Origin: a virus
Reading direction: 5' to 3' (one strand)
DNA length: 31,422 bases
Virus record (IMG/VR): IMGVR_UViG_3300045136_000065
Location: 1 to 31,422 of that record
This document shows, one piece after another, positions 694 through 19,822 of this stretch; position 1 is the first letter of the stretch, and each line of letters starts with the position of its first letter. The notes below the pieces were generated by a model. That model was given only the letters and a program-made list of their open reading frames with translations, was not told the origin of the DNA and did no database searches. A program made the position numbers and the translations under genes.

Positions 694-707
694 ACATTAT
701 ATGTTAT
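694..707 (-). promoter_or_regulatory. Late-type promoter motif before the scaffold-like gene
   Basis: Read on the minus strand this is ATAACATATAATGT followed by AGTAGG, sharing AACATATAATGTAG with the copy at 12294-12310. It overlaps the stop codon of the upstream gene and lies about 80 bases before the scaffold-like start. The remaining leader holds a small inverted repeat (CTTGC...GCAAG) near 667-681. Assignment as a promoter is inference from recurrence and position. Confidence 0.5.
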
Positions 708-1357
708 TTTTTTTGTTCTTTTTTATTCATTTCATCAACCATAAATTTAAGGAAACTTCTATCTTGCGCTTGTATGGATTTAAGTTTTCTTATTTGTGCC
801 ATTTTTTTTAAAAATTTAGCTAATAATTCTTTTTTAATATTTTCATCAGATATATTAAGGTTATTAACTATTTCTCTTATTTTGTCTTCAGATAATTTTT
901 CTAATTCATCTGGAGATATTATTTTATCAGGCTCAACAAGAATTTTTGTTTCTAATCCAGTAGGCTCTTTTTCAAAAGGAACGGCAACAGGCATCCCATA
1001 TTGACCCTTTTTACTTATTTCTTTTGTAAAAGGTTCGTATTTTACAGTCTGGTCTCCTAGGCTTACAAAACCTCTTGGAGCATCGGGATTTTGTATTTCA
1101 TATTGTTGCCTTTTAATTTGTTGAGAAGGCGTAATTTCTTTAGAATCCATGTACTCTTTTAATTTTTGTAAATTATTATCGGCGTATTTACCCGCACTTG
1201 TTGTTAAATTTTCATACCCTTCACGTAAACTTTGCGTAGCGCTGTCTAATGTATCTTGTATGGATTTTACAGCTCCTTTAGTCGGTTTTATAAAAAAACG
1301 ATAATAAGGCGAATCTACCGGAAAACCATCATCAATTTTTTTTGAATCTTTGTCCAT
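704..1357 (-). CDS. Unknown late virion-associated protein (217 aa)
   Basis: I do not recognise the family. The protein is hydrophilic, Lys/Glu-rich and without a membrane segment; residues 30-75 and 140-210 look helical. Near residues 39-46 it carries SATQSLRE, resembling the DPATQSLR motif near the N-terminus of the virion protein at 7140-8036. The ATG directly follows the stop codon of the transglycosylase gene (TAA then ATG), with GAGGG just upstream, so the two are translationally coupled. Position between the wall-degrading enzyme and the scaffold-like gene suggests an internal or tail-associated virion protein; that is inference from context only. Confidence 0.75.
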   Translation of the reverse strand: MDKDSKKIDDGFPVDSPYYRFFIKPTKGAVKSIQDTLDSATQSLREGYENLTTSAGKYADNNLQKLKEYMDSKEITPSQQIKRQQYEIQNPDAPRGFVSLGDQTVKYEPFTKEISKKGQYGMPVAVPFEKEPTGLETKILVEPDKIISPDELEKLSEDKIREIVNNLNISDENIKKELLAKFLKKMAQIRKLKSIQAQDRSFLKFMVDEMNKKEQKK

Positions 1358-2086
1358 TTAAGTACCCTCGTTTTCTTTTTTTATTTTTCTGTAAACAATA
1401 TTTTTGGGGTCAATTAGCTTATTTTTAATTCTTCTAAATTTAGAAGATAAATTTATTGAATCTTCTTCCTCTTGCGGCTCTTCATCAGCAATAAACTCTC
1501 CAGAAGGAGATAAAAACACCATACCTTTTGGAATTTCTACATTATTGTTAGTCGCATAATTTGGCACTAAATTATTTACAATAGATTCAATTTTTTTCTC
1601 AGATTCACTTGGTACATCATTAATTTTTGACGCAGCTTTTTCTATTCTCGAAAGATATTCTGCTTGTAATTTAGTTTTTGGATTTATTAATCTATCCATT
1701 AAAACTTTGGGATCTGAATAATGTCCCTGATTCCACGCAAAAGCTGCTAATCTTTCATCTCCGTACCGTTTAAGAACGTGATCTACTAATGTATCGACAT
1801 ATTTTTCATAAATATCAGGGTTTTGTTTTATAATTTCAGGTATTTGCTTTTTTGCGTCTTCTAAAGACATTTTTGCAATTTTTTTATCTAATTCGTCGCC
1901 AATACCTCGATTAATCCGCATTTTAGCGGCATCTTGAATAGTTAATGGCATTAACCCATATTCACCTATAGCCCTATCTCCAGCATGGATTCCAGTTTTA
2001 ATCATTTTATGATTAAGATTTTTTCCGCCACTAGATTCTAGATGGCTAATAATTCTTTTAAAACGTTCTTGTTTTAATTCATCCAT
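1358..2086 (-). CDS. Lytic transglycosylase (SLT/lysozyme-like), virion-associated
   Basis: A 242-residue protein that should cleave the glycan strands of peptidoglycan. Residues 14-20 read SHLESSG, the ES-type motif whose Glu17 would be the catalytic acid. Residues 41-47 (GEYGLMP) match the GLMQ-type motif, and residues 115-122 (AFAWNQGH) correspond to the AYNAG-type motif of SLT domains. The domain fills roughly residues 8-160; the C-terminal 80 residues are charged and of unknown role. I chose the ATG at 2086 rather than the GTG at 2143, because the longer reading frame would run through the late promoter motif at 2109-2118. No signal peptide is seen. Location among structural genes favours a virion-borne enzyme that locally opens the wall during DNA entry over a lysis endolysin. 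Confidence 0.75.
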   Translation of the reverse strand: MDELKQERFKRIISHLESSGGKNLNHKMIKTGIHAGDRAIGEYGLMPLTIQDAAKMRINRGIGDELDKKIAKMSLEDAKKQIPEIIKQNPDIYEKYVDTLVDHVLKRYGDERLAAFAWNQGHYSDPKVLMDRLINPKTKLQAEYLSRIEKAASKINDVPSESEKKIESIVNNLVPNYATNNNVEIPKGMVFLSPSGEFIADEEPQEEEDSINLSSKFRRIKNKLIDPKNIVYRKIKKENEGT

Positions 2087-2108
2087 AGCCAGATTTCTCT
2101 TATAACAA

Positions 2109-2118
2109 TATATGTTAA
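2109..2118 (-). promoter_or_regulatory. Late-type promoter motif before the transglycosylase
   Basis: Minus-strand TTAACATATA followed by TTGTTATAAG, 23 bases upstream of the chosen ATG at 2086. It matches the repeated motif found before terL, the portal gene and the leftmost late gene. The 120-base gap 2087-2206 that contains it is otherwise non-coding. Confidence 0.5.
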
Positions 2119-2206
2119 TAGGGTAATTGAAATATAAAACCACCTTCCGTGGACAACACTAACCAATAGACGGTTTTTAAAATTATCTTTTTTTGCCGGC
2201 GTCGGT

Positions 2207-2698
2207 TTAAATATTATTTTTGCCACAAAGCTCCTTTAAAATTGCTACTGGAGGTTTCATATCGTAATTAGAATTAAGCATATATCCCATAACTTCTGAA
2301 CAAAAATATCTATTTGGGTTTTCCCAAGCATTATTTTCAGGTATTTTAACATTAAATAGTTTAGAAAAAATCACCCATAACCCTAAATAAAAGGCCCCTA
2401 TCCAATCATATTTTTTACCCTTTATACTTCTAAATAAATTTTTTATATCTTCGTATTCCCATTCAACAGAAGAAGGTATTTTAGCAACTTCATAATTTAA
2501 TTCTAGCCATTTTTCATAAGACATAACTCTAACGCCATTTTCTAATGTAGATTCATGCACCCAACGATTATTTACTAAAATAGCAACATGGCTTGGAGTA
2601 TTTTTAAATTCGGGATATAGATGTTTAGTACCCCAAGAAATTAATTTTGAGCCAATTAAATCTCTTTTAGAAAAAAGATAATAAACACTTACCTTCAT
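2207..2698 (-). CDS. Permuted NlpC/P60-like (YiiX/LRAT-type) cysteine hydrolase
   Basis: A 163-residue protein with the motif order of circularly permuted NlpC/P60 papain-like enzymes: His first (PSHVAI, His37), a Glu in VHES (Glu49) and the nucleophile Cys late (YFCSE, Cys133). Members act as amidases or endopeptidases on peptidoglycan peptides, or as acyl hydrolases; the substrate here cannot be read from sequence. Residues 100-113 are hydrophobic but lie inside the fold. I start at the ATG at 2698, which overlaps the upstream stop (ATGA) and has GAGGG seven bases before it; a GTG at 2704 is also in frame. Next to the transglycosylase it could form a two-enzyme wall-breaching module in the particle. 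Confidence 0.7.
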   Translation of the reverse strand: MKVSVYYLFSKRDLIGSKLISWGTKHLYPEFKNTPSHVAILVNNRWVHESTLENGVRVMSYEKWLELNYEVAKIPSSVEWEYEDIKNLFRSIKGKKYDWIGAFYLGLWVIFSKLFNVKIPENNAWENPNRYFCSEVMGYMLNSNYDMKPPVAILKELCGKNNI

Positions 2699-3159
2699 TC
2701 CCACCCTCTACTTTGCAAAAACTGAGTTATTTCATTTATGCCAAAGTTAATTATATCTGCGTAAGCAGGGTAGTTATTAGCACAATTTTGCATAAATCCC
2801 CTAGCTGTTTTTAAAGCGCCAGTATCTAACAACATTTTAACTACTCCCATTCCGTTAAGAAGTTGAACTATATTAACTTCAGCTCCAGTTTGAGCTAAGA
2901 TAAAATTTCTTTCACCCAACTTATCAACCAGTTTGTCAGATAACTCTCTTCCAAAAATTCTTTGTTGTCTTTGCTGATCTAAAGGGGGTACCGGCATCAA
3001 AACATTATTTACAAGTATCCAACCAACCTGGGGTTGAGGTGACATTCCTTCTATGTCTATGATAGCATCCCAATCTCTTATATGGTTTTGATACTCACTT
3101 GGCTCGATCTGGTCTATTAAATGAACTACATTATTTCTTATAAAGGCGTAAGTTTTCAT
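2695..3159 (-). CDS. Unknown late protein (154 aa)
   Basis: Not recognised. The first 55 residues are beta-rich and include IEPSEYQNHIRDWDAII and a PQPQVGWILVNN segment, the kind of short insertion seen in tail-accessory proteins. Residues 60-154 look helical and Gln/Leu-rich. No signal peptide or membrane segment. The ATG has AAGGATG upstream; the stop overlaps the next gene's start by four bases (ATGA), and the gene starts two bases after the stop of its upstream neighbour, so it belongs to one compact operon with the fibre-type proteins. Confidence 0.75.
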   Translation of the reverse strand: MKTYAFIRNNVVHLIDQIEPSEYQNHIRDWDAIIDIEGMSPQPQVGWILVNNVLMPVPPLDQQRQQRIFGRELSDKLVDKLGERNFILAQTGAEVNIVQLLNGMGVVKMLLDTGALKTARGFMQNCANNYPAYADIINFGINEITQFLQSRGWE

Positions 3160-3161
3160 TT

Positions 3162-3707
3162 TTACTCATCCTTTTTAGTTACTTCTAAGAATTCCACATC
3201 ACCTCTTAATCTGGTGACGTTATCAAAAATACCTAGGTGGTTAACATAAATTCGTTCTCTATAGGTAATTCCAAGTCTTACTATTGTTGCTTGGATCATC
3301 AGAGTATCGCCGCCAAAGAAATCCAAGCTTCCAAGAGAAGCTAAGGTTGGGTTGGCATACCAATAAGAGTTGGTAAGTTGCGTGCCACTGATACTTGATA
3401 AAAAGGTTTCTGTCCAATTAGGAGGAGAAACCGAGTATATGTCAAATTGGCAACTAGTGGCATTTGCTATTGAATTAGTCTTTGGATCATATAAATAAGC
3501 AGCTATCTGGATGTTATTAAAAGTATCTTCATTAAACTTTGCAGCAAGCTTAACTACTTGAGAAGAGTTGCTCAGACTACTGTCAGGTCCAAACAAAAAT
3601 TGCCACTCTTCGTTGTGGTTTTCGATGTAGCGGCTTGAGTGGTCAATTTTTAACCACTGAGCATCTTGAGTATGGTCATGGGCTACAAGTTTTTTAGATA
3701 CTGGCAT
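3162..3707 (-). CDS. Unknown beta-rich virion protein (181 aa)
   Basis: Not recognised. The sequence is Ser/Asn/aromatic-rich and beta-dominated, with an N-terminal segment (residues 8-40, HDHTQDAQWLKID...) and a likely jelly-roll or Ig-like body, as expected for a fibre, spike or decoration protein. There is no signal peptide. Its ATG overlaps the stop of the FN3-containing gene in a TAATG arrangement, so the two are translationally coupled and may form one tail or surface structure. Confidence 0.7.
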   Translation of the reverse strand: MPVSKKLVAHDHTQDAQWLKIDHSSRYIENHNEEWQFLFGPDSSLSNSSQVVKLAAKFNEDTFNNIQIAAYLYDPKTNSIANATSCQFDIYSVSPPNWTETFLSSISGTQLTNSYWYANPTLASLGSLDFFGGDTLMIQATIVRLGITYRERIYVNHLGIFDNVTRLRGDVEFLEVTKKDE

Positions 3708-5053
3708 TATGTCCCCAATAGCGTAAATGCTCTAGTTGATACCCTGTTTTGCCCTGCTACCGAGATTGTAATTTTAGCTGTATAATGGGTTAAGTCAGTA
3801 AGTGGTCCTGCTGATACAGGAGTTATGTGAAAATATCCATTAGCGTCAGCAGTGATGCCAGATTGAGTTAACCCAGCTACAGGGTTTCCACCTGCATCGT
3901 ATATCTGATAGCTTGCAGTGCCCAAGATAGAGCCACTAAGCAGTTGGTTGTTTTTTGTAGCCCAGAAAGTGGCTCTTAGTTGGTTAGAAGCATTTATCGA
4001 GAATACGGCTTTATTTTCAAAAACTTCAGGCTCGTTTCCAATTACTATATCTTCGGTAATCGGTGTTCCGTCCGCAGTAATAGTAACCTTAGCTACATAC
4101 GCTTTTGTTGCATCGTAACCTGTAAACGCTGTAGGAGTTATGACAAAAAACCCATTTGAGTCGGCAGAAATATTAGATTGCGAGATAGACAATAAGTTTC
4201 CTTGAGCATCATAAAGTGTATATGAGCAAGTTCCTAAGCTTGTAGTCATCAAATTACCTTTTCTGGTAATCCAAAAAGAACCTGTTATCTGGTTAGAGTT
4301 ATTTACATCGATAGCGCCGTTAATCTTATAAATTTTCTCTAAAGCTGGTACTGGAATAAAATTAACTCGATTTTCGCCATCGATACTGATAGTTATTTTA
4401 ATACTATAAGTGTTGTTAATCCTATCTAAAAGGTTAGGTACAGCAGGAAATACATACTCACCTTGAGAATTTGGCGCAGGATTATTACCGCTCATACCAA
4501 CTACAGCGTTACCAGCACTATCATAAACTTGGTAGCTTGCAGCTCCCATAACAGCGCCAGGAGAGATTGCCAAGCTTCCGTTTTTGTTTCCCCATGCCTT
4601 TAATATAAACTGGTTACTTCCATTTACGGCAAAAGAACCTTCTACGGTATAGGTATCGATAGACGTAAGGATACCTGTAGAGATAACGCTTAAGCTTACC
4701 GTGTTGTTATCCCTGTTATTAACGCCGTCTATAGCTCTAACACCTACATGATAGGTAGTTCCGTTCTGTAAAAAGGAGCCGTCAGGCAAAGTAAAGATAT
4801 CGTATTGAAGTTTGTCTGTTATAGCTATAATGTTTGCTGTGTTAAATAAGTTCGTGTTGTTATTTGCTTTTATGTACACTTCGTATCTAATTGGCGGAGT
4901 CGGATCTGTCGCTGCCGGCCAACCTACTCGGATTTGACCTCTTGACTCTACGTCTATAAAGTTGATTCCAGCAAAAGTTGGCGGTATAAGATCAGTTATA
5001 CACGCCTGACTTGTGCCTTGGTAAAAATTATTCTCAACTAAAAAATTAGGCAT
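3707..5053 (-). CDS. Tail/surface protein: FN3 domain plus three Ig-like repeats
   Basis: A 448-residue all-beta protein. Residues 24-126 resemble a fibronectin type III domain (IRYEVYIKANN..., GTTYHVGVRAIDGV...NN). Then come three homologous units of about 100 residues, near 136-235, 242-338 and 345-446. Each has a start like FxVNxSNQ, a WxxKxG or equivalent, SYQ/TxYDxxGN, a central ADxNGxF and a closing strand like KITI. The units are divergent, so duplication is old. Such FN3/Ig repeats decorate tails and capsids and often bind host glycans. Context (between the 684-residue tail candidate and coupled small virion genes) supports a fibre or adsorption-accessory role; the exact location in the particle is unknown. 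Confidence 0.75.
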   Translation of the reverse strand: MPNFLVENNFYQGTSQACITDLIPPTFAGINFIDVESRGQIRVGWPAATDPTPPIRYEVYIKANNNTNLFNTANIIAITDKLQYDIFTLPDGSFLQNGTTYHVGVRAIDGVNNRDNNTVSLSVISTGILTSIDTYTVEGSFAVNGSNQFILKAWGNKNGSLAISPGAVMGAASYQVYDSAGNAVVGMSGNNPAPNSQGEYVFPAVPNLLDRINNTYSIKITISIDGENRVNFIPVPALEKIYKINGAIDVNNSNQITGSFWITRKGNLMTTSLGTCSYTLYDAQGNLLSISQSNISADSNGFFVITPTAFTGYDATKAYVAKVTITADGTPITEDIVIGNEPEVFENKAVFSINASNQLRATFWATKNNQLLSGSILGTASYQIYDAGGNPVAGLTQSGITADANGYFHITPVSAGPLTDLTHYTAKITISVAGQNRVSTRAFTLLGT

Positions 5054-5075
5054 TTAAATCTCCAAATTCAATATA

Positions 5076-7130
5076 TCAGTTTTCACGGAGGGATGGGCGC
5101 ACATCCACGCCAGGAGGGCTTGTAAACGTATACCTAACCAATGTTCCAACAGTGTTAGGGATCGTACCCAATGCTAACCAAGTTGTTCCGTTATTTGTTG
5201 AGTATTGGAAATTTGATGCGTTTGCTACGGTGTTGTGGTTTACTAATAAAGTGCCGTTTAGATCGTACGCTCTATAGTAAAGAGTAGGCACTGGTCCAAC
5301 ATATGCCTTTTTAAGCCTAAATGCTGTTCTAGACGGTACATTGTTATCTGAAAAATCATCAGAAAATTCCCAATTATCTGAAATTTCGTTGTTAGATTGG
5401 ATACCTAAGAAAAATTCAGTTAACTGAGCTGGAATTGCAGTTCCAATTTTTAAAGTATCAAACAATATCTTAAATTGAACTTGCGAACCAGTAGTAAAAG
5501 ATGTTATATCTTCTGCAAAAGGAATAAGCTGCCAGCCGCCCGTTATAGTGTTAAAACCTGATGTACGATAGTACACTTTTAAGGCATTGGTATCTTTATA
5601 AAGCTTATTTGTACTTGCTAGATATTTATAAACTGCATCTGGCGTGTCTAATACTTTTGTTACGATATAACTATAGTCGAAAAAAGCATCTGATCTAACA
5701 TCAGCGATAATAGTGCCTCTTTGGCCGACAGGAGCGTTGCTGGTGACGGCCAGCCAACCATTTCTCAAATCCAAAGAAGATACACCCGAAAATCTAAGAT
5801 CAACAACCTCACTGCTCGTAGTTTCTCTGTATTTGTTTGAGTTTCCACCAAAAATTTTATCGATGTTGTTATTAACTACCTGTTTCATAACAAGTAGGTT
5901 TGTGTTGGTTAAATAAACAGCTCTATCTAGGGCGTTAGACCATGCGGCGTTTGCCAAGGTCGGGGCTGTAATCTCGTTTGCCGCACCAAGTAAGTTAGAT
6001 GTAACTAGTGACGGCCAAGTTGTAGCACCTGAAGTAAGCTCTGATAGCCTACCTAGATACAAGTTGGTGGATGTTGCAAAAAAGGCGCAGTCGAATCCAG
6101 CGTTTGATGTGTGTTGAGGTGTCGCAAAATACTCCGAATTTAACGCTACAAGGGTTCCTGATAAGGCAGGTAAGTTTCCTGTTTTATGAACAAAAGCATC
6201 TCCTGTTGTACCAAAAGCTCTGCAAACATCAACGGTACCGCTCGTTGTTATGTTTATGACGGCTCCACCTGGAGTAGTGGATAACTGATAATCGTTTGCT
6301 GTGGGGTTTCTTACAAAATAAACCGTGTTGTTGGTTAGCCCAGCACCGCCTGATAAGTTTGTAAGGAAAATAGGATCGTTGTTGTTATATCCGTGTCCGT
6401 TTTGAGTTATCCTATCTGTTACGTCGTTGATGGTGTTTCCTGCCGTTATAGGACAGTTTAACGTTGCGTTGGTGGAGTAAACGTAATATTGATGCGTAGC
6501 TGCAACACCATTATGAACATAAACTCTGTTGTTAGCTGCGTCAATAATTGTTCCTGTTGCAGCGGTATTTAATTGGTTTGCCCCTATGTTGTTTGGGTCT
6601 TGTAAAAAATATGTAGCTTTTTGGTTTGAACCTGTTGCAAAAGGAAATAGCGTACCGGGAGCTAAAGGGGTGAAATCGGCCAAATCTACGTTGTTAACAC
6701 AATACAATCCACCATTTACCAATACTGAACCAGTAACCGCTACATAAATCTTAAAACCAGTGTTACCGTTATCTATTACCTTAAACCCTCTGTAAACAGC
6801 GGTGGTTCCAGGCGTATCAGCAAGTTGCATCCTTATCATACCGACGTATGAAATATCTCCATTGTTGAGGTTAACCGTATGACAGGTTATGGTAGCTATA
6901 GAACCAACCTTTGCTGCGATATGGTAAAGTCTACCGTTAGGAGACAAAAAAGCCATTACTGGGGTAACCCCCGCCGTGTCTGTAAAAACATCCACGAATT
7001 TATTTAAAGAGGGACCTAAAGCCGTACTACCATCTACTATACGGTTTAATACTCGACCTTGTATCGTTGTTTTTGTTTGGTCATATGTACCGACAACTTG
7101 CGCTAAAAGATCCGCTTTTATAGACTTCAT
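5076..7130 (-). CDS. Large virion protein, tail/fibre candidate (684 aa)
   Basis: Not assigned to a family. The protein is Asn/Thr/Gly/Val-rich, with repeated short beta segments (FLSPNGRLYHIAAK, RMQLADTPGTTAVYRG, TNLYLGRLSEL, NALDRAVYLTNTNLLVMK) that recall a beta-propeller or beta-sandwich body in residues 50-450. A C-terminal beta-rich module lies near residues 480-684 (DDFSDNNVPSRTAFRLKKAYV). Length, composition and position two genes after the portal fit a tail fibre, tail spike or adsorption protein. The ATG at 7130 has GGAGAC immediately upstream. A late-type motif lies 63 bases before the start, inside the end of the upstream gene, so this gene may also have its own late transcript. 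Confidence 0.65.
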   Translation of the reverse strand: MKSIKADLLAQVVGTYDQTKTTIQGRVLNRIVDGSTALGPSLNKFVDVFTDTAGVTPVMAFLSPNGRLYHIAAKVGSIATITCHTVNLNNGDISYVGMIRMQLADTPGTTAVYRGFKVIDNGNTGFKIYVAVTGSVLVNGGLYCVNNVDLADFTPLAPGTLFPFATGSNQKATYFLQDPNNIGANQLNTAATGTIIDAANNRVYVHNGVAATHQYYVYSTNATLNCPITAGNTINDVTDRITQNGHGYNNNDPIFLTNLSGGAGLTNNTVYFVRNPTANDYQLSTTPGGAVINITTSGTVDVCRAFGTTGDAFVHKTGNLPALSGTLVALNSEYFATPQHTSNAGFDCAFFATSTNLYLGRLSELTSGATTWPSLVTSNLLGAANEITAPTLANAAWSNALDRAVYLTNTNLLVMKQVVNNNIDKIFGGNSNKYRETTSSEVVDLRFSGVSSLDLRNGWLAVTSNAPVGQRGTIIADVRSDAFFDYSYIVTKVLDTPDAVYKYLASTNKLYKDTNALKVYYRTSGFNTITGGWQLIPFAEDITSFTTGSQVQFKILFDTLKIGTAIPAQLTEFFLGIQSNNEISDNWEFSDDFSDNNVPSRTAFRLKKAYVGPVPTLYYRAYDLNGTLLVNHNTVANASNFQYSTNNGTTWLALGTIPNTVGTLVRYTFTSPPGVDVRPSLREN

Positions 7131-7139
7131 ACAGTCTCC

Positions 7140-8036
7140 TTAAATAACAACCCAATTGACATTATCTCTGCGGTATTTATTTCCTACTAATGTATATGTT
7201 AATTGCTTAACCACAGATACGCCAGGGAAAGAAGGGCTTGTATACGTTATCGAAGTTATTCTTTGATTTTTATTACCGAAATCTGCGTAAGTTATAGTGG
7301 AGTTTCTATCTTTTGCATCTAATATAGCTTGGCGTATTGTATACACTACACCAAATTTATTACCAGTTGCTGTACCATCTTCACTACCCACTAATTGCAC
7401 TGAATCCGGAGAAGAAGTAAAGGCATTTAAGTTTACTGTTAAGGGGTTTGATAAAGAGTTTTGTATATTTGTCAAAGTAGTGTTTGCGTTAGTAAGTAGT
7501 GTATTTGTTGTAGCTAATTGAGGCACACTAACACTATCTTGCGTACTATTTAAATCTCTTATGTTTTGAGCTTCTGTTAAATCAGCTTTTAATTGTAGTT
7601 CAGTAAGTAAATTATCTAACTTGGTCTCTACGTTTGGTGCGGCCACACTATCTGTTGTGACACTTAATTGTCTTATGTTTTGTGCTTCGTTTAAATCTGC
7701 TTTTAATTGTAATTCTGTTAATAAATTATCTAATTTTGTTTCTACGTTTGGAGCAGCTACACTATCTGTCAATACATTTAGAGGTCTTATGTTAGTTAAC
7801 GCAGCAGAGTTTACTATATTTACATCTAACCCCTGTTTGCCAGAAACATTAGTGGACGTAATTAAATTAACTCCATCACCTAATCTTATGCTGTCATTTG
7901 TATGACTTATAGCTACTTCTAAACCGCCAGGCACTACTATAGTGGCCTGCGCATTTGTACGTAAACTTTGCGTGGCGGGGTCATGCACATCTCTTAAAAT
8001 ATTTTCCTGACTTAAATTACTAGTAGGAAATGGCAT
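7140..8036 (-). CDS. Virion protein with internal 38-residue duplication
   Basis: A 298-residue protein. Residues 18-26 (HDPATQSLR) match a short motif seen near the N-terminus of many phage tail and baseplate accessory proteins, though I cannot name the family. Residues 82-119 and 120-157 are near-identical 38-residue units (core DSVAAPNVETKLDNLLTELQ), followed by a decayed third unit at 158-172. These heptad-like segments probably form a trimeric coiled-coil stalk. Residues 215-298 form a beta-rich head ending RRDNVNWVVI. This stalk-plus-head layout suits a fibre or tail-neck attachment protein. It lies ten bases downstream of the portal gene in the same transcript. Confidence 0.65.
   Translation of the reverse strand: MPFPTSNLSQENILRDVHDPATQSLRTNAQATIVVPGGLEVAISHTNDSIRLGDGVNLITSTNVSGKQGLDVNIVNSAALTNIRPLNVLTDSVAAPNVETKLDNLLTELQLKADLNEAQNIRQLSVTTDSVAAPNVETKLDNLLTELQLKADLTEAQNIRDLNSTQDSVSVPQLATTNTLLTNANTTLTNIQNSLSNPLTVNLNAFTSSPDSVQLVGSEDGTATGNKFGVVYTIRQAILDAKDRNSTITYADFGNKNQRITSITYTSPSFPGVSVVKQLTYTLVGNKYRRDNVNWVVI
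7193..7202 (-). promoter_or_regulatory. Late-type motif inside the end of the repeat-protein gene
   Basis: Minus-strand TTAACATATA followed by CATTAGTAGG, resembling the AATGTAGTAGGG that follows the copy at 694-707. It lies in coding sequence, 63 bases upstream of the 684-residue gene. It could be an internal late promoter or a chance match constrained by codons. Confidence 0.35.
7521..7793 (-). repeat. Tandem 114-base coding repeat, two full units and a partial
   Basis: Units at 7680-7793 and 7566-7679, then a degenerate piece at 7521-7565, inside the gene at 7140-8036. The protein copies are almost identical while the DNA copies differ at many silent positions, so the duplication is not recent. 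Confidence 0.85.
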
Positions 8037-8045
8037 ATACTCCCT

Positions 8046-10040
8046 TTATCCTTGCGGTATTGGTGAGTTAACTTGCATTGCTCCTTCAGGAAGTTCTGGC
8101 ATATTAGGCATTTGTGGTTGACCTGGCTGCATAACATTAGGATCTACAACACCGCCTTCCGGAACAGCGCTCATATTAGGGTCCATCATTGTGTTTTCCG
8201 GATTAGGAGGCGTTCCATTAGCGGGCCCTAATGGCTGCTCTTGCATAATAGATAATAGTCCAGGATCTGTAGTGCGCAGCATTTCAACGTGCTCTAAAAT
8301 ATGATTAAGCACCATTTGAACTGCGGGGCTATTTGGGTCTCGCATATCAGGGTCATCCAATATAGCCTTATGCTTTCTAATGTGGTACATATGGCTGTCA
8401 GTAGCTAACACTGGTACATATTCACCACGAAGCATTTTTTCATTTTCACGTTTAACAAAATTATTTTGTCTTTGACTGTCCTCAATAAAACTAGAAAATT
8501 GACCAGTATTTAACACTGTAAAATAATCTTCTGGAGTTTTAATAATACCATATTGTAGTAATTCTGAGGCCATTTGCATTTTACCTGCCGTAGTCACGGC
8601 TATAGGATTGCCAATATCAACAATAACACGATCAATAGAAGCTAAATCATCGCCAGTAAATTCTGTTCTGACGTAAGAAAGGTTGCTTTCTCCCGCAATT
8701 AGTGCAATGCGGGGGACATCCGCAAAATCTCGTAGCAATTCAATAATACCCATTCCAATATCTTCTACCATAAACACATATTGGGTTTGCAACCCTGAAA
8801 TAAATTGCAAAGCCATTGATTGCACTAAAGCCATAGCACTGCCAGACTTAATTGAAGCCTCTGGGTCCCCTCTTACTACAGAGTTCATTCCAGAAATAGT
8901 TTCCATTTTCTTTTCAATCATTTGAATAAAATTAAACACTTCGGCGGGGGTTTGTGTAAAATTAATTGGTTCTGGTTTTCCTTGGCCAGAATTTCCTTCA
9001 ATAATATTTAATCCACCTTCTAATGCTTTAAGCTGTATATCAGCTCCTCTAGGTACATAAATATTTTGTACGCCAAATGTATGTTGGTTAGTGAGCACTG
9101 TGCTATAAAGAGCATTTAAAGCATCTTGTAGCGGCAGTAGGTCAAACATAGGGGTGTAACCAAAAGATGTGCCTAAAATATCACTAGGACTAATTCTATA
9201 AACAGGAAGCCTTCTATAAGGCATTGGCATATCTACAAGAATAATATCGGTGCTTAAAAATAGTAAATACCGCCCCTCTGGCATAGCCTCTGTTTTTTTA
9301 TGAAAAAATTCGTATACTGGCACTTCATCAGACTCATGTTTAGACAACATATCGCCCATAGATCTATAATCTAAAAAATCTGTTTTTGTGGCCAGTTTTT
9401 CAATTTTTTCTTTATATTCTGGGTACTTAGCAGCTAAATCGTATTTATTTTTAAAAGAACGACAAAGCACCCATTCATGAGAATGGCTGCTTGATTTATT
9501 GGGATCAAACATTACATCAAAAGGTTCAAGATTTGAAAACTCAATATCCCCCTCATAAATTGGGGCTCCCGTCTCTGGGTGGTAGTCGTAAATATCCCCA
9601 CTTGTAGCATTCCATTCCATTTTGACATAGCCAGTAGCTAATACCACAGCTTGTTTTACGGCATCATGAATATATTTTTCTACACGCTTCTGTCTTACAT
9701 AATAATCCAATAATCCGTTAGCTAGATCTGTTTGTATAATAGATTTACTGTCGGAGTTAGATGCTCTAGCTCTAAAATTAAGTCTTACGTTTGTTATCAT
9801 TGTGCACATTAGATCGGCAATGTTTCTATAATGGTTTACTGCCATTTGGGAAAATTCGCCCTGCTCACCGCCAAATGTAATAGTATGCCCCTCCCCATAA
9901 TAAGCACCATGATAAGCCATCCAACTAGCTCTAATTTTATCATAATACCCATTGGTGTATAAATGCTTAAACCACATTTCAGATCTATTTAAAAGAATAG
10001 AAGCTGTTTCTTGTGCTGGCTTTGCCGCAAAATAATTCAT
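8046..10040 (-). CDS. Portal protein
   Basis: A 664-residue portal, the dodecameric ring at one capsid vertex through which DNA is packaged and ejected. Supporting features are the N-terminal helical region with WMAYHGAYYGEG, a beta wing with GYVKMEWNATSGDIYDY, PFDVMFDPN and SHEWVLCRSF (about residues 155-205), then HKKTEAMPEGRYLLF and the clip/stem segments RISPSDILGTSFGYTPM and DLLPLQDALN. The crown-side helices contain NSVVRGDPEA and SGSAMAL. The C-terminal 70 residues are Pro/Met/Asn-rich and probably disordered. The gene sits 27 bases after terL, the usual packaging order. AGAGG precedes the ATG, directly next to a late-type motif. The length is closer to large podovirus-type portals than to siphovirus ones. 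Confidence 0.85.
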   Translation of the reverse strand: MNYFAAKPAQETASILLNRSEMWFKHLYTNGYYDKIRASWMAYHGAYYGEGHTITFGGEQGEFSQMAVNHYRNIADLMCTMITNVRLNFRARASNSDSKSIIQTDLANGLLDYYVRQKRVEKYIHDAVKQAVVLATGYVKMEWNATSGDIYDYHPETGAPIYEGDIEFSNLEPFDVMFDPNKSSSHSHEWVLCRSFKNKYDLAAKYPEYKEKIEKLATKTDFLDYRSMGDMLSKHESDEVPVYEFFHKKTEAMPEGRYLLFLSTDIILVDMPMPYRRLPVYRISPSDILGTSFGYTPMFDLLPLQDALNALYSTVLTNQHTFGVQNIYVPRGADIQLKALEGGLNIIEGNSGQGKPEPINFTQTPAEVFNFIQMIEKKMETISGMNSVVRGDPEASIKSGSAMALVQSMALQFISGLQTQYVFMVEDIGMGIIELLRDFADVPRIALIAGESNLSYVRTEFTGDDLASIDRVIVDIGNPIAVTTAGKMQMASELLQYGIIKTPEDYFTVLNTGQFSSFIEDSQRQNNFVKRENEKMLRGEYVPVLATDSHMYHIRKHKAILDDPDMRDPNSPAVQMVLNHILEHVEMLRTTDPGLLSIMQEQPLGPANGTPPNPENTMMDPNMSAVPEGGVVDPNVMQPGQPQMPNMPELPEGAMQVNSPIPQG

Positions 10041-10057
10041 GGTATTTACCTCTAAAA

Positions 10058-10067
10058 TATATGTTAA
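10058..10067 (-). promoter_or_regulatory. Late-type promoter motif before the portal gene
   Basis: Minus-strand TTAACATATA followed by TTTTAGAGG, filling the short terL-portal gap. The motif ends 17 bases before the portal ATG, so a transcript starting just downstream would have a very short leader that keeps AGAGG as ribosome-binding site. Confidence 0.45.
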
Positions 10068-11495
10068 TTATCTTCTTCTAAAAGGATTAGTACGCCTTAT
10101 CCTTTGAACTAAAGCGTGTTCAAACGGTGTTGTAGGTTGTTGGTAATTATGCTTAATTATCATATAATCACTAGATGAAAAATTATGATTTTCGGGGTAC
10201 GGATTTTTGTTCATGTTAACATTTCTTACGAAGTATACTAAAGCATCTAGTGCATCATAATGCCCTTTATCAGGACTTTTTGAATAGCTAGTACGTTGTT
10301 TATTCCATGTAGCCCCTCTTAAATGCGAAATTAATGTCCTACATTTAGGATTAATTAGTATTTTTTTCCGCTTAAGTAGAATGCGCATATTATTAAGTTG
10401 AGCTAATTTATCATCTTTCATTGTAGGAGTAAAATGTAAGCCATGTTTTGCAGATAAATCATTTAATAAAATAATGTTATTATTATCTGCCACTCTTAAT
10501 AATGGAGCTTTATACCCCCATAATTCTAACTCCTTATTTTGAATAGCGGAAGCTATTTCATCCGTCAACACTTTTCGATTAAATGCCAATTCATCTTGTA
10601 TTACAATTGTAGCCGACATAAAATCGTAAAATCCAAATAATATTACAGTTAAATCATTACCACCTATATCCATAGAAACATAAGTATCAACTAATTCAGG
10701 GCGTATTACTTCTTTGACTATCTCACTTTCTAATTCACGAGTAAATTCAGGCACTACAGAATCTTCTTCAGATACTACAAGTTCAGCTAAATATTCACGT
10801 TTAAAATCTACTGTATCAAATCCACCTACTGATTCGGCAATATCATCTATTTCTTCTTTTGTTAGACGGGGGTTGTCAAAAATTGTTTTGCGAATATATG
10901 CGCCCGCTTCTTCAGCTCGTTTAATAAACCCAATAAATGGATGATCCATGCTTTTAGGCGGTGTAGACGCCATTATTATCTTACCCTTAGTCATTGTTGT
11001 AGTGGGCAGTAAAACTGAATTTACAACGTAATCTAAATCATCAATAAATCCAACTTCATCCAAGATACATAAATGAGCATTACCGCCCCGTATTCTATCA
11101 GCATTGCCATTATCTGTACCAGCTAATTGTATCTCACTACCGTTGTAAAATTTATATACATTTTCTTTAGTTTTGTATGTGGGGAGTACATCTTTAGGAC
11201 AATCTACAGTTATTTCGTAAAATAACGGCCTAATATACGATGTCACCATCTGTCTGGTAGGCGCTACAAATTTAACAATACTATTTGGGTTTTTTAGACA
11301 AAATTCAATGGCGTATGTTAACAAAAAATATGACTTACCAATACGGCGGCTACTGCCTATAACAATTGTCTTTTCTTGTGTTTTATTTACAAAATTATAT
11401 ATTTCTAATTGATTTTTATCTAATTTCCAGCGTAGATTGCCTTGTCTCCATAGCAGGTTTATAGCCTGTCGTTTATCGACTTTAATATTTGCCAT
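10068..11495 (-). CDS. terL: Terminase large subunit
   Basis: A 475-residue packaging motor that drives DNA into the procapsid with its N-terminal ATPase and cuts it with its C-terminal RNase H-like nuclease. Walker A is GSSRRIGKS at residues 47-55. Walker B is HLCILDE at 141-147, with catalytic Glu147. A coupling motif is visible as MASTPP near 175-180. The nuclease begins at about residue 270, with a first acidic residue in VSMDIGGND (Asp276) and a later acidic cluster in GHYDALDALVYF. The length is within the usual 450-600 range. It follows a coiled-coil gene in the small-terminase position and precedes the portal. A late-type motif immediately precedes the ATG. Confidence 0.95.
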   Translation of the reverse strand: MANIKVDKRQAINLLWRQGNLRWKLDKNQLEIYNFVNKTQEKTIVIGSSRRIGKSYFLLTYAIEFCLKNPNSIVKFVAPTRQMVTSYIRPLFYEITVDCPKDVLPTYKTKENVYKFYNGSEIQLAGTDNGNADRIRGGNAHLCILDEVGFIDDLDYVVNSVLLPTTTMTKGKIIMASTPPKSMDHPFIGFIKRAEEAGAYIRKTIFDNPRLTKEEIDDIAESVGGFDTVDFKREYLAELVVSEEDSVVPEFTRELESEIVKEVIRPELVDTYVSMDIGGNDLTVILFGFYDFMSATIVIQDELAFNRKVLTDEIASAIQNKELELWGYKAPLLRVADNNNIILLNDLSAKHGLHFTPTMKDDKLAQLNNMRILLKRKKILINPKCRTLISHLRGATWNKQRTSYSKSPDKGHYDALDALVYFVRNVNMNKNPYPENHNFSSSDYMIIKHNYQQPTTPFEHALVQRIRRTNPFRRR

Positions 11496-11501
11496 ACACT
11501 T

Positions 11502-11511
11502 TATATGTTAA
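11502..11511 (-). promoter_or_regulatory. Late-type promoter motif before terL
   Basis: Minus-strand TTAACATATA followed by AAGTGT and the terL ATG. It is so close to the start codon (six bases) that a transcript beginning 7-10 bases downstream would be leaderless or nearly so. Either terL has very weak translation from this promoter, or the motif here acts in another way. Confidence 0.4.
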
Positions 11512-11539
11512 GCATATTGTGTAGCAAAAATAAGGCCAA

Positions 11540-11929
11540 CTATTCGGATTGAGCAATATTTTCTAATTCTTCCTGAGATAAGGTTTGATAATCTACTGTA
11601 TCAATTACTTGTGTAGCCTGCTCTCTAGCCAGTCGTAGATTTTTTACAAATAAATCTAATTTTTTAGCTTCTTCTAAAGTAAGTTCACGCCCCAAAGATT
11701 TAGAGCGTAATAATTCAATTTGCTCAATACAAATTAATTCTTCCGTTGACACTCTACCGTTAACTTTAGCTAATTTATTTTGCTGCAAAGCCGCTAATTG
11801 TGCTTTTAATTCCTCATTTTCCGCTTTTAATTTTTCTATAATACGGTTTTGTGTTTCGGCTACTTCTTTTACTTCCCTAACTTTTAAAGCTTTTTTGTAG
11901 GCTTTTTTAATTTCAGCTACGCCATCCAT
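11540..11929 (-). CDS. Coiled-coil protein in small-terminase position
   Basis: A 129-residue protein with a long coiled coil (about residues 20-50, with EKLKAENEELKAQLAALQQ) and a second helical part at 60-105 (IELLRSKSLGRELTLEEAKKLDLFVKNL). Its position directly upstream of terL is where the small terminase subunit usually lies, and oligomerising coiled coils are common in small terminases. I see no clear N-terminal helix-turn-helix, so the assignment rests mainly on context. The ATG overlaps the stop of the upstream membrane-protein gene (TAATG). Confidence 0.6.
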   Translation of the reverse strand: MDGVAEIKKAYKKALKVREVKEVAETQNRIIEKLKAENEELKAQLAALQQNKLAKVNGRVSTEELICIEQIELLRSKSLGRELTLEEAKKLDLFVKNLRLAREQATQVIDTVDYQTLSQEELENIAQSE

Positions 11930-12198
11930 TAGAAAAACCTTTTTCCTTCAATGCCATTTTTAGCAGCATTTTTAACAGCAAGTCCAGAAACAACGTTTTT
12001 AATTTTTTCTAGTTCTTTCATCACTTCTTCAGATACGTCTGGTTTGGATTGCATATCCAACCATTTTTTATATCCTAAATATACAGAAAAAGCGACAAAC
12101 ACAACTGATTGCGCTATTTCCATTGAATGCAATGATCGAAGGGCTAATACCATTAAAATAGCCGTTAGCCAATCAATATTGGAAATCCATTTCTTCAT
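11929..12198 (-). CDS. Small two-helix membrane protein, holin candidate
   Basis: An 89-residue protein with hydrophobic segments near residues 10-24 (LTAILMVLALRSL) and 28-44 (IAQSVVFVAFSVYLGY), then a charged, helical C-terminus ending KRFF. Two transmembrane segments with a charged tail fit a class II holin topology, and it is the first gene of the late transcript from the promoter near 12300. GGAG precedes the ATG. No endolysin adjoins it, so holin is inference; a membrane-bound packaging or assembly factor is also possible. Confidence 0.65.
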   Translation of the reverse strand: MKKWISNIDWLTAILMVLALRSLHSMEIAQSVVFVAFSVYLGYKKWLDMQSKPDVSEEVMKELEKIKNVVSGLAVKNAAKNGIEGKRFF

Positions 12199-12293
12199 AA
12201 ATTCTCCATATCTTTGTTAGGTGTTTTATTTTGCGTGAAGACCTTTATTTTAATTATTGGGGCACACAGCCCATAGTCCATTGCTTTTATTCA

Positions 12294-12310
12294 CCTACAT
12301 TATATGTTAA
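12294..12310 (-). promoter_or_regulatory. Major late-type promoter, leftward arm of divergent control region
   Basis: Minus-strand TTAACATATAATGTAGG, the most complete copy of the recurring motif, about 96 bases upstream of the first late gene. It is almost back-to-back with a rightward sigma-70-like promoter starting four bases away. The layout makes this the natural start of the late operon. Confidence 0.6.
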
Positions 12311-12313
12311 ATG

Positions 12314-12343
12314 TTGCCTAAAATATTTTTTGTGTAGTATAAC
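12314..12343 (+). promoter_or_regulatory. Sigma-70-like early promoter, rightward arm
   Basis: TTGCCT (12314-12319), an 18-base spacer and TATAAC (12338-12343), then AGAAAAGGAG before the ATG at 12366. It should drive the envelope-protein operon. Because it nearly abuts the late-type motif on the other strand, polymerases on the two promoters would compete. Confidence 0.55.
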
Positions 12344-12365
12344 AAAATATAGAAAAGGAGAAAAA

Positions 12366-13151
12366 ATGCTTAAAAAAACATTAAATTTAATAAGTGGAGT
12401 ATTATTGGGGGCTGTTATTGTGGTCGTTGCATTTAGTTTAAAAAATAAAACACCAAATGAAGAGATTATTAATACCCCTACAGTAAAAGAATTTGCGCAA
12501 AATAATACCCCACCTTCTTTAAACAAATTAGAAGTAAAGCGAATTGAACTTGATCCAAATCAAGTAATTATGTTTAATACTCAAGTAGATTATCAATCTG
12601 TGTCTTTAACAATTTCTAGATTAGATGAACTTACAGCTCAGGGGTATAATCATGTATACATTGTTTTAGATAGTCCTGGAGGTAGCGTTATAGACGGGGC
12701 AAATTTAATTGCTTACATGAAGGCATCTAAAATTCGTATTGACACAGTGTGCCAAGGAATTTGCGCTTCTATGGCTGCTCAAATTCACCAAGCTGGAAAA
12801 AAACGTTATATGACGGATAAATCTATTTTAATGTTCCACCCTGCGGCATTAAGAATTGGCGGAAAAGTAGAAGAAATGCTTAATCAAATTCTTACAATTA
12901 AAAAATACGTCGATAGATTGGACGCAGAAGTGGCTGCAAGAGCTGGTATTAAATATGAAGTTTTTAAACAAATGATAGTGTCTGAATTGTGGGTAGAAAG
13001 TGTTGATGCAGTTGAAATGGGATTTGCTGATAAAATTGTCTATCTATTTAATAAACCAAACACTAAACCTTTAACTTTTAGCTTTAATCTTAAAAAAGCC
13101 ACTAATTCAAATAAAATAAATAATGTAAATGGATTAAGAGATTTGCGATAA
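12366..13151 (+). CDS. Membrane-anchored ClpP/SppA-like serine protease
   Basis: A 261-residue protein. Residues 8-24 form a hydrophobic signal anchor, followed by a Pro/Asn-rich linker to about 55 and a ClpP-fold domain at 60-230. SPGGSV (103-108) is the oxyanion/strand motif, ASMAAQ (134-139) holds the nucleophile Ser135, and LMFHPA (155-160) holds His158. The position of the ClpP catalytic Asp seems to be occupied by Glu207, so activity is plausible but unproven. Unlike ClpP it has a membrane anchor, and no ATPase partner is seen nearby. The domain probably faces the periplasm and would cut membrane or periplasmic proteins. I start at the ATG at 12366 with AAAGGAG, not the longer TTG frame. 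It is the first gene of the early operon. Confidence 0.8.
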   Translation: MLKKTLNLISGVLLGAVIVVVAFSLKNKTPNEEIINTPTVKEFAQNNTPPSLNKLEVKRIELDPNQVIMFNTQVDYQSVSLTISRLDELTAQGYNHVYIVLDSPGGSVIDGANLIAYMKASKIRIDTVCQGICASMAAQIHQAGKKRYMTDKSILMFHPAALRIGGKVEEMLNQILTIKKYVDRLDAEVAARAGIKYEVFKQMIVSELWVESVDAVEMGFADKIVYLFNKPNTKPLTFSFNLKKATNSNKINNVNGLRDLR

Positions 13152-15250: not shown

Positions 15251-15523
15251 ATGCTAAAATTACAATTTAAAAAGCTAACCTTAATATGCTATTTACTTTT
15301 ATTGTCACAAACTTATTGTTTTGCAAATGACTACAACATTGACTTTATTGGATCTAATGTTATTATTACTAGCAATAATTTAGATAAACCTATTGTGGTA
15401 AATGTAGACCATCTTCTTTTAAAGAACGGTGAGTTTGATGTAAATTTAGTTGTTCAAGAAGTGATGAACAGTTATAAGAGGGAGAAAAAGGATGCTACTA
15501 AAAGTAGAGACAACAATTTATAA
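15251..15523 (+). CDS. Small exported protein with signal peptide (90 aa)
   Basis: Start chosen at the ATG at 15251, after GGAGGAG. Residues 1-25 form a signal peptide (KKLTLICYLLLLSQTYCFA), with likely cleavage after CFA. The mature 65 residues have a beta-rich first half (YNIDFIGSNVIITSN) and a charged helical end. No family recognised. It overlaps the deformylase-like gene by 32 bases. Confidence 0.7.
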   Translation: MLKLQFKKLTLICYLLLLSQTYCFANDYNIDFIGSNVIITSNNLDKPIVVNVDHLLLKNGEFDVNLVVQEVMNSYKREKKDATKSRDNNL

Positions 15524-16016
15524 AGGCGGGTCCTACCAATTAGTAGAAAATTTAGAGCCTTGTAAATTTAAAATATCTACAAATCAAACTAAAGCTAGTC
15601 TTAATCATTTTACTCAAGCGCTTTTTAGAACAGCTAAAAACTACAACCTACCTTTTGTCACAGCAAACATGGTGGGCAAACCCTTTTTTATCGTAACATT
15701 TAGGACCTTAGGGCTGCTCGATGGTCAAACAAGGGCTATGATTAATCCCCAACTTATTTGGTGCTCTGATGAAGGTCAATATGTTGAAGAGTGTTTTTAT
15801 TTAAACGGAGAAGAAACCGTTATTAAAAATAGACCAAAAACAATAAAATTAACTTATATGAATAAATATCATAAAATAGGCACATATGAATTTTCAGGAC
15901 GCTTTGCCGCCTATGTTATACAAGCTATTGAAGTAATGTATGGACTACCTCTTAACTATATTCCTCCTACCCCGTCAGAGGTGGCCGCCCGACTTAAAAA
16001 AATACACGGAGGATAA
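15492..16016 (+). CDS. Peptide-deformylase-like protein lacking the HExxH metal site
   Basis: A 174-residue protein that keeps the deformylase outline. FRTAKNYNLPFVTANMVGKP (45-64) aligns with the GIGLAANQIG region, INPQL (85-89) with the INPEI segment, EECFYL (99-104) with EEGCLSL, and VIQAIEVMYGLPL (142-154) with the FQHEMEHLEG helix. Cys101 remains, but both His and the catalytic Glu of HExxH are gone (QAIEV), and the GxGLAA motif is degenerate. It should not bind the catalytic metal. It may bind nascent chains, ribosomes or host deformylase without deformylating. A true deformylase is encoded at 30232-30714. Homology is by visual alignment and needs structure-level confirmation. Confidence 0.6.
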   Translation: MLLKVETTIYKGGSYQLVENLEPCKFKISTNQTKASLNHFTQALFRTAKNYNLPFVTANMVGKPFFIVTFRTLGLLDGQTRAMINPQLIWCSDEGQYVEECFYLNGEETVIKNRPKTIKLTYMNKYHKIGTYEFSGRFAAYVIQAIEVMYGLPLNYIPPTPSEVAARLKKIHGG

Positions 16017-17198: not shown

Positions 17199-17226
17199 TT
17201 AAGCTTGGCGTGGCTTTGGCTATATA
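17199..17226 (+). promoter_or_regulatory. Possible sigma-70-like promoter of the small-gene island
   Basis: TTAAGC (17199-17204), 16-base spacer, TATATA (17221-17226). The -35 is imperfect. The gene at 17281 with GAAAGGAGG follows at a suitable distance, leaving a leader of about 50 bases. Confidence 0.4.
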
Positions 17227-17280
17227 GTTTTGTGTCGGGTCGATAAAGACAGACACAAACAAATTGAAAGGAGGACCGCT

Positions 17281-17634: not shown

Positions 17635-17692
17635 GTATACATATCGCCAAACCTACAGATAAAATAAAAACAACAAGAAAGGAGACACACAC

Positions 17693-18172: not shown

Positions 18173-18185
18173 AAAGGAGACAGTC

Positions 18186-18443: not shown

Positions 18444-18464
18444 ACAGTAACAAAGGAGAGATAT

Positions 18465-18734
18465 ATGCCCACACTTAACACTTTAAAAACACGACTGACA
18501 CTGCAAGATGTCACAGAACTGACAAACATCTTGACATACCGATGCAGCCTATTGACTAGGCTTAGGATATGGGCTGTCCTTAGACATAAAGCGTCAAGAC
18601 TGCCTAGCTCAAATATCTTCAACCGTCTTAAAAAGACACGTACTGGCTGGAGATATTATGCTAAACGATCATATCGGGATGAACTAAGACAATTAAGAAA
18701 ACTTATCTTAAACATAAGAAAGGAGACAATATGA
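18465..18734 (+). CDS. Basic small protein, tandem paralogue B (89 aa)
   Basis: Diverged copy of the preceding gene, about 40 per cent identical by eye with all conserved Trp, Tyr, Arg and Cys positions kept (Cys24, the GWRYYA motif and SYRDELRQLRKLILN). It is even more basic (many Arg and Lys), again fitting nucleic-acid binding. AAAGGAGAG precedes the ATG. The stop overlaps the next start (ATGA). Two retained copies suggest either a heterodimer or functional splitting. Confidence 0.75.
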   Translation: MPTLNTLKTRLTLQDVTELTNILTYRCSLLTRLRIWAVLRHKASRLPSSNIFNRLKKTRTGWRYYAKRSYRDELRQLRKLILNIRKETI

Positions 18735-18955
18735 ACGGGCTAAAAAAGCTGGCCTTGTTTGCACAAGGCTTTACAGATGATCCGACATATCTAGAGTGTG
18801 AACTAGACCTAGTAATAGGCGGGGACACATATAGGACTTATGCTATGACAGTGACAAATAGCCGTGTCATATTCCACTGTCCTGAAGTGACTATTGAATA
18901 CGGGATAGAGTTTCAGGAAGACGGACCTGTAGCCAAGCTATATAATGTAACATAA
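18731..18955 (+). CDS. Unknown acidic small protein (74 aa)
   Basis: Acidic, beta-rich protein (ELDLVIGGDTYRTYAMTVTNSRVIFHCPEVTIEYGIEF split by turns) with no signal peptide. Not recognised. Its leader is AACATAAGAAAGGAGAC, the same 17-base string that precedes the gene at 18970. Pairing of an acidic product with the basic paralogues upstream could indicate complex formation, as inference. Confidence 0.7.
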   Translation: MNGLKKLALFAQGFTDDPTYLECELDLVIGGDTYRTYAMTVTNSRVIFHCPEVTIEYGIEFQEDGPVAKLYNVT

Positions 18956-18969
18956 GAAAGGAGACTAAT

Positions 18970-19110
18970 ATGAACACATTTAACGAACTAGTATCTGTCG
19001 CCCCTAGAGAGCTGTTATTTTATTGTGACGGGGCTACAGTGTCGTATGTTATAGACACATACGATGATAAGTCTGTATCCGTATTAAATGACGTAAACAT
19101 AGACGAGTAG
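18970..19110 (+). CDS. Unknown 46-residue protein
   Basis: Short acidic frame, MNTFNELVSVAPRELLFYCD then a beta-strand-rich end with VSYVIDTYDDKSVSVLND. It is preceded by AGAAAGGAGAC and begins with the same first five residues as the gene at 18186, so leader and initiation region look duplicated. No family recognised. Confidence 0.65.
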   Translation: MNTFNELVSVAPRELLFYCDGATVSYVIDTYDDKSVSVLNDVNIDE

Positions 19111-19118
19111 GAGTGTAT

Positions 19119-19247
19119 ATGTACACGGGCGGAGACTATCTAGAATACGTCAAGAAAGAATGTGAACGAAGAGAGATAGCGTTTAGAACACGAGTGTTTG
19201 TGGTTTTAGTACTGATAGTGGGGGTGTTTTTATGGGTGATAGGGTGA
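19119..19247 (+). CDS. Single-pass membrane peptide (42 aa)
   Basis: Starts at the ATG at 19119, eight bases after the previous stop, with TAGGAGTG upstream. A charged N-terminal 25 residues (with KKECERRE) is followed by a transmembrane helix at about 26-42 (RVFVVLVLIVGVFLWVIG) ending at the C-terminus, typical of a tail-anchored peptide. Phage peptides of this sort often target membrane proteins; the target is unknown. Confidence 0.6.
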   Translation: MYTGGDYLEYVKKECERREIAFRTRVFVVLVLIVGVFLWVIG

Positions 19248-19252
19248 TCGGC

Positions 19253-19290
19253 GCTGGGGGCTGTACCCTTCGCCCTTCAACTCCCCCAGC
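19253..19290 (+). other. Strong G+C-rich hairpin in a gene gap
   Basis: GCTGGGGG (19253-19260) pairs perfectly with CCCCCAGC (19283-19290), with a 22-base loop. It lies six bases after a stop codon. No T-run follows, so it may be an RNA-stability or processing element rather than an intrinsic terminator. The rest of the gap to 19360 shows nothing else. Confidence 0.5.
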
Positions 19291-19360
19291 TTCCCATCCT
19301 GATTCCCTACTTAATAACCGCCACTTAAAACAGTATAACAACAAAAACAGGAGGCAAACT

Positions 19361-19522
19361 ATGTATTTACTACGAATTAAAACTATCACTTACACATTCG
19401 AACAAATCTTTAAAACACGTAAAGAGGCTGAAAACATGGCTAAGACTATCTTATCACGGGATAAAGCTGTCGAATTCACTTTAAAAAGAATTGACGGGGG
19501 CTTTAGCCCCCTTCCCGTGTAA
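19361..19522 (+). CDS. Unknown basic 53-residue protein
   Basis: Start at the ATG at 19361 behind CAGGAGGC. Basic protein with an alpha/beta look: a strand (YLLRIKTITYTF), a helix (TRKEAENMAKTILSRDKAV) and a strand ending near GGFSPLPV. The longer frame from 19232 would cross the hairpin and has no binding site. Its last codons form a hairpin (19496-19511). No family recognised. Confidence 0.6.
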   Translation: MYLLRIKTITYTFEQIFKTRKEAENMAKTILSRDKAVEFTLKRIDGGFSPLPV

Positions 19523-19549
19523 GACAGTCGGACGCCGCAAGCGGCTTAC
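19496..19549 (+). terminator. Stacked hairpins after the small-gene island, possible terminator
   Basis: GGGGGC-TTTA-GCCCCC at 19496-19511 is a perfect stem formed by the last codons of a gene. It is followed by GTAAG (19519-19523) pairing with CTTAC (19545-19549) around a nested GCCGCAAGCGGC hairpin (19534-19545). There is no U-run, so intrinsic termination is doubtful. A structured 3' end or small RNA is an alternative. Confidence 0.45.
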
Positions 19550-19606
19550 GTAATAAGCATATGTGTTTAAGTAATAGACGGCCATTAGGTGCTTTTAAGG
19601 AGAGTC

Positions 19607-19822
19607 ATGGGTAGTGATCCAGTATCCGCCACGCTGGGGCGTGGTACAAGCAAGGTTAGCTCCCGAAAAACAGAGCAGCAAGGATGTGCTTCTTTCTTGG
19701 CCTCGCTTGTCCGGATGGCTGCCTTGATATGGGCCGAACTATTACAGGCATCCGTTCACTATTATATGTTAACGAGTAAGAGTTTTGTCAACAAAAAATT
19801 TGACAAGACGATAAATTTATGA
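19607..19822 (+). CDS. Doubtful 71-residue protein, or structured RNA
   Basis: The frame has AAGGAGAG five bases before the ATG, and no other reading frame explains this stretch. The product begins MGSDPVSATLGRG and has a hydrophobic amphipathic middle (ASFLASLVRMAALIWAELLQ), with no recognised family. Its DNA also forms a strong hairpin, GCCACGC...GCGTGGT at 19628-19645, and carries a late-type motif on the other strand near its end. The coding call is weak for these reasons. Confidence 0.4.
   Translation: MGSDPVSATLGRGTSKVSSRKTEQQGCASFLASLVRMAALIWAELLQASVHYYMLTSKSFVNKKFDKTINL
19763..19772 (-). promoter_or_regulatory. Isolated late-type motif facing the plus-strand early region
   Basis: Minus-strand TTAACATATA followed by ATAGTGAACGG. 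It is the only copy outside the late block. Transcription from it would run antisense through the small-gene island. It sits next to the change from G+C-richer to AT-rich sequence. Confidence 0.35.

Follow-up and report, generated by a model that had tools for sequence, protein, structure and literature searches.

A minus-strand nine-base motif recurs through a 31,422-base virus fragment (the window, meaning the whole stretch of DNA analysed here), which raises the question of whether these copies start late transcription and, if they do, what reads them. A first-pass annotation had counted seven exact copies of TAACATATA on the minus strand and none on the plus strand, and our count confirmed this. 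Dinucleotide shuffles of the window contained a mean of 0.78 copies over both strands, and none of 100 shuffles contained at least seven. TAACATATA is the top over-represented 9-mer of the window, level with ACAAAGGAG, and takes the form TTAACATATA in six of its seven copies. Five of the coordinates given earlier are correct; the other two were displaced by a few bases (694 becomes 698 and 12294 becomes 12301). The suffix ATGTAGTAGG, described as frequent, was overstated: it occurs exactly only once (at 706), and ATGTAG follows in 2 of 7 copies. When the seven window sites were aligned, the -35 region showed no conservation.

The virion genes of the window occupy the minus strand of bases 1-12,200, and nucleotide-metabolism genes together with small early-type genes lie on the plus strand from ~12,230. 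Six copies of TAACATATA, not five as first reported, stand ahead of minus-strand virion genes, with 6, 17, 22, 62, ~84 and 102 nt separating them from the respective start codons. The claim that they lie in gaps holds for five of these six, which are wholly or mostly intergenic in a region (bases 1-12400) where gaps make up 4.0% of the sequence. The copy at 698..706 (minus strand, ATAACATATA) precedes a scaffold-like gene (minus strand, ATG at 613, continuing beyond the window edge), with a predicted start near 692. The copy at 2109..2117 (minus strand), which is intergenic, is followed after 22 nt by a gene with its start at 2086. The exception, at 7193..7201 (minus strand), is within the 3' end of the gene at 7140-8036 and 62 nt upstream of a tail-fibre-like gene (5076-7130, minus strand, start at 7130). 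Next comes the copy at 10058..10066 (minus strand), 17 nt upstream of the gene for a P22-like portal protein (8046..10040, minus strand, assigned by profile matches); this slot is also filled in relatives. The element at 11502..11510 (minus strand) ends 6 nt upstream of the ATG start codon of the gene for the terminase large subunit (10068..11495, minus strand; PHROG 2, E=2e-35; Pfam Terminase_6N). At this short distance, and with no Shine-Dalgarno sequence seen at the site, the terminase mRNA is predicted to be leaderless. The copy at 12301..12309 (minus strand) occupies the divergent intergenic region where the late operon begins. The seventh, at 19763..19771 (minus strand), lies in the early region and is oriented against the early genes, with a non-coding RNA and no gene downstream.

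Several other features of the early side were recorded. The first gene of the early cluster, also found in relatives, encodes a ClpP-like protease (12336-13151, plus strand) whose N terminus bears a signal or membrane segment. An intein-like segment (E=3e-4 to TIGR01445) splits the ribonucleotide reductase (RNR) beta subunit gene (24661-26619, plus strand). A peptide deformylase is encoded at 30232-30714 (plus strand; TIGR00079, E=2e-41), and at 15492-16016 (plus strand; Pfam, E=3e-7) lies a further gene whose product resembles deformylases more weakly. Between 16000 and 20000 the G+C content is 0.415, against ~0.31 on the flanks, and many small ORFs there have no family relatives.

A portal search recovered 56 related loci in uncultured phages. 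The nearest relative (G001, 54 kb) has a portal protein 77% and a TerL 56% identical to those of the window. It carries seven copies of TAACATATA, all but one of them on the portal strand. At three positions orthologous to those of the window, namely the portal gene, the head of the late operon (L068:9978) and the non-coding RNA, the motif is retained while its flanks have diverged; the genes flanking the shared positions are 37-77% identical at the protein level. In the same phage, an element at L066:15691-15704 (minus strand) ends just ahead of the ATG of a metalloprotease-like gene (4-6 nt over this and the terminase site), suggesting a leaderless mRNA there too, and a T5 A1-like 'DNA transfer protein' is encoded at L066:15752-17278 (minus strand; phrog_1745, E=1e-98).

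Just upstream of the portal gene of many other relatives, TTAACAACTA replaces the window motif. Across 21 portal-related records, a largely non-redundant set whose members were recognised by their portal protein, TTAACAACTA favours the portal strand by 57:1, with 2.65 copies expected; over 30 records, with redundant ones kept, our own sum is 80:2 by strand. No conserved element was found upstream of TTAACAACTA in the 21 records. In these records a T and then a purine are favoured at +14/+15 counted from the TTAACAACTA start, that is, 6 nt beyond the motif end, and this preference suggests a start site at that distance past the element. Two more lineages use other sequences in the same slots, all on the late strand: TTAACAAATA (6:0) and CACCCTTAT within AACACCCTTATA (9:0). 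The records concerned are L090, L089 and L087 (G010) and L085 and L086 (G005), in which the lineage-specific CACCCTTAT (9:0) and a TTAACAAATATTAAATGA-like sequence (6:0) stand in for TTAACAACTA. Neither TAACAACTA nor TAACATATA occurs in the Silvanigrella phage that is the closest isolate, and a literature search on the motifs gave nothing relevant among the papers listed. As judged from sequence, the motif probably serves as a late promoter element across a whole family of uncultured phages.

Downstream of the seventh copy, at 19485..19757 (minus strand, 3' end uncertain), lies a predicted structured non-coding RNA consisting of a hairpin P1, then a helix P2 and further hairpins. P1, at ~19713-19754, has a near-invariant loop. 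The sequence downstream of this copy is conserved in G001 and also in G031, an otherwise largely unrelated phage, where TTAACAACTA lies ~75 nt upstream of the RNA core. In G024 a related RNA directly follows TTAACAACTATAATTGA. Since the RNA is found behind the same or a sister promoter in three relatives also, it supports promoter function independently. The core TAATAGTCTCGAAAACAAGG marks additional members at L143, L145 and L146, where there is no such promoter. In addition to the window RNA, mapped members are at L068:5223 (plus strand), L069:3977 (minus strand), L107:1119 (minus strand), L143:7897 (plus strand) and L146:9150 (plus strand). In this class the near-invariant hairpin loop reads either TAATAGTTCGrCmCATATCAAGG or TAATAGTCTCGAAAACAAGG. 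Its members also share a long helix that covaries, and most of them end with TAATGG on the 3' side. Compensatory changes were seen at 8 of the 9 pairs of P1 (five sequences from five phages). P2, with 8-11 pairs, is found again at the corresponding place in four sequences that are unrelated in this segment; the frequency of this recurrence is ~4e-7, a rough figure obtained as the product of four separate shuffle frequencies. Rfam 15 gave no match to the RNA, in the window or its relatives, at E up to 1. Because of the missing Rfam match, the compensatory changes and the recurring P2, the RNA appears by these searches to be a previously undescribed structured class, one lying outside Rfam and common to otherwise largely unrelated tailed phages. 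A relaxed search with the core over bacterial genomes and viral contigs returned one bacterial match and several viral ones; the bacterial match and three of the viral ones are without the context of the RNA and look like chance. A BLAST match to a Vibrio phage (E=0.2) shares 25 nt only and was not counted.

Taken together, strand bias, the position in gaps, the lack of a -35, conservation at orthologous positions and across the family, and the 57:1 bias of the sister motif support late-promoter function, as the first-pass annotation had proposed. The TTAACATATA element is very probably the late-gene start signal of this uncultured phage. What we infer from these patterns is that the element acts as a promoter, where transcription starts, that it is used late and what kind of factor reads it. 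TTAACATATA would be the core of a single-element late promoter, -10-like and with no -35. The phage would supply a specificity factor, most probably a small, early-made sigma-70-like protein, that redirects the host RNA polymerase; the polymerase would then melt the DNA at the element and begin at a purine ~6 nt downstream. Transcripts begun in this way would cover the packaging operon and the terminase, portal, tail-fibre, lysis-type and scaffold/capsid genes; the separate non-coding RNA would be begun from the same element type. We give this explanation as a whole, with a single-element late promoter, host polymerase plus phage specificity factor and a start ~6 nt downstream, a probability of about 0.75. 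It would allow late promoters to be read from sequence across a large group of uncultured phages.

That host polymerase together with a phage factor reads the element is likely, and a phage factor as such is a plausible reader; the window encodes two candidates. The first, at 24160..24648 (plus strand), is a sigma-70-like protein with region 2 (Pfam Sigma70_r2, E=8e-7, 29.1 bits against a cut-off of 24). TIGR02937 matched it at E=5e-6 over residues 13-91 only, and a profile search found no match to region 4. Its single-sequence structure model, of low confidence (pLDDT 59), best resembles sigma factors with weak E-values, and a weak fold match was to the phiEco32 gp36 structure 9m7y_F (E=0.53). 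The second and weaker candidate, at 22565..23065 (plus strand), matched PHROG 1740 at E=3e-4 over residues 7-156 and gave weak NCBIfam sigma matches; its structure model was of low confidence and uninformative. Viral contigs and isolate phages contained no close relative of either protein. We consider it somewhat less than an even bet that one of these two is the reader.

This leaves room for a late promoter whose reader is not a sigma-70 relative. It might be a phage activator, a T4 gp55-like factor that went unrecognised or an alternative sigma of the host, and the sigma-like genes of the window would then serve other promoters. G001 shares the motif, and no homologue of either sigma-like protein was found among its ORFs, in an early region that looks complete since late genes flank it at both contig ends. 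Either the reader has therefore diverged past detection or neither window protein is the reader. Likewise, profiles PF04542, phrog_1740, TIGR02937 and PF08281 gave weak matches and no convincing sigma in 18 related records; the two weak matches inspected were an HNH endonuclease and an exonuclease. However, such profiles recognise divergent phage sigmas poorly, and since experimentally validated gp36 itself scores below the Pfam cut-off (Sigma70_r2, 18.3 bits, against 29.1 for the window protein), the absence of a sigma from the relatives is not established. We give a non-sigma-70 reader clearly less than even odds. Conserved early proteins were also considered as readers, among them a 163-aa protein found in 10 of 15 records, and no informative function emerged. 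The 163-aa protein itself (L066:12788-13279, minus strand, and relatives) bears a DIDY...WLNSF signature and is conserved in those 10 of 15 family records.

A broader proposal, to which we give odds similar to those of a non-sigma-70 reader, is that in a large family of uncultured phages single-element late promoters have repeatedly switched consensus between lineages at the same gene slots (TTAACAACTA, TTAACATATA, TTAACAAATA, AACACCCTTATA), that they are read by a specificity factor not recognisable as sigma-70, and that several lineages also make the new-class structured RNA in late transcription. The sister motifs would provide, at orthologous sites, a natural set of shifts in promoter specificity, in which the co-change of reader protein and DNA element could be followed.

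Ordinary host sigma-70 promoters would require TATAAT-like -10 boxes that share the upstream TTAACA by chance. Three sites do read TAACATATAAT, which contains TATAAT, but the other four do not run on as TATAAT. No -35 hexamer was found ~17 bp upstream of the -10; the upstream sequence is unconserved in the window sites and in the 21 relatives. A TG extension is also missing, and the TTAACAACTA of most relatives offers no in-register -10 hexamer. A sigma-70 promoter scan of the window found no excess over shuffles, the density of sigma-70-like sites being the same in both. We regard host sigma-70 promoters as quite unlikely. A single-subunit, T7-like phage RNA polymerase, whose promoters could account for a short AT-rich element near the start site and for a strong strand bias, is less probable still. 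T7-like promoters are conserved over ~17-23 bp, whereas conservation here ends after 10 bp. RNA_pol (PF00940) had no matches in 19 records, a search in which the control genomes were silent too, and inspection of G024 and G019 (~80 kb, near-complete) found no large non-structural ORF that resembles a phage RNA polymerase; none was seen in the window either, which is a fragment. Chance, or a repeat with a role in packaging, recombination or translation rather than as a promoter, is the least probable reading: the motif is short and the genome AT-rich, but 0 of 100 shuffles reached the count, relatives show a 57:1 strand bias, and the motif sits just ahead of genes and of a non-coding RNA that needs no translation signal.

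Known systems offer several points of comparison. T4 late promoters (TATAAATA, read with gp55/gp33/gp45) likewise consist of a single -10-like element without a -35; the element here is instead TTAACATATA. Phage 7-11 has promoters for its sigma factor gp47 that are bipartite, GTAAtg-(16)-aCTA. It resembles the present family in having a phage sigma with its own late-promoter consensus and a comparable genome layout, and its aCTA recalls the end of TTAACAACTA; unlike in phage 7-11, the family here has no upstream element. The RNA resembles those in Rfam 15 in being a phage-encoded structured non-coding RNA, and differs in having no covariance-model match. The closest parallel is phiEco32, whose experimentally studied middle/late promoters have the consensus tAATGTAtA, start 6-8 bp downstream and no -35, and whose reader gp36 is an ECF-like sigma without region 4 (PMC8948821; PMC4331800). 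In the window and its family, as in phiEco32, one ~9-bp element of low copy number with no -35 lies ahead of late genes transcribed away from the early cluster, and small sigma-like proteins are encoded in the window; the start may likewise lie ~6 nt downstream, as the T-purine preference suggests. The two systems differ in that TAACATATA departs from tAATGTAtA at 2 of 9 positions and relatives have TTAACAACTA, and in that the protein at 24160-24648 matches Pfam better than gp36 does. The window sigma-like proteins have no BLASTP similarity to gp36, and a portal tblastn returned five phage records, none phiEco32-like. Overall, the predicted promoters of the window have the layout of those read by phiEco32 gp36, with no detectable relationship between the two and a different consensus.
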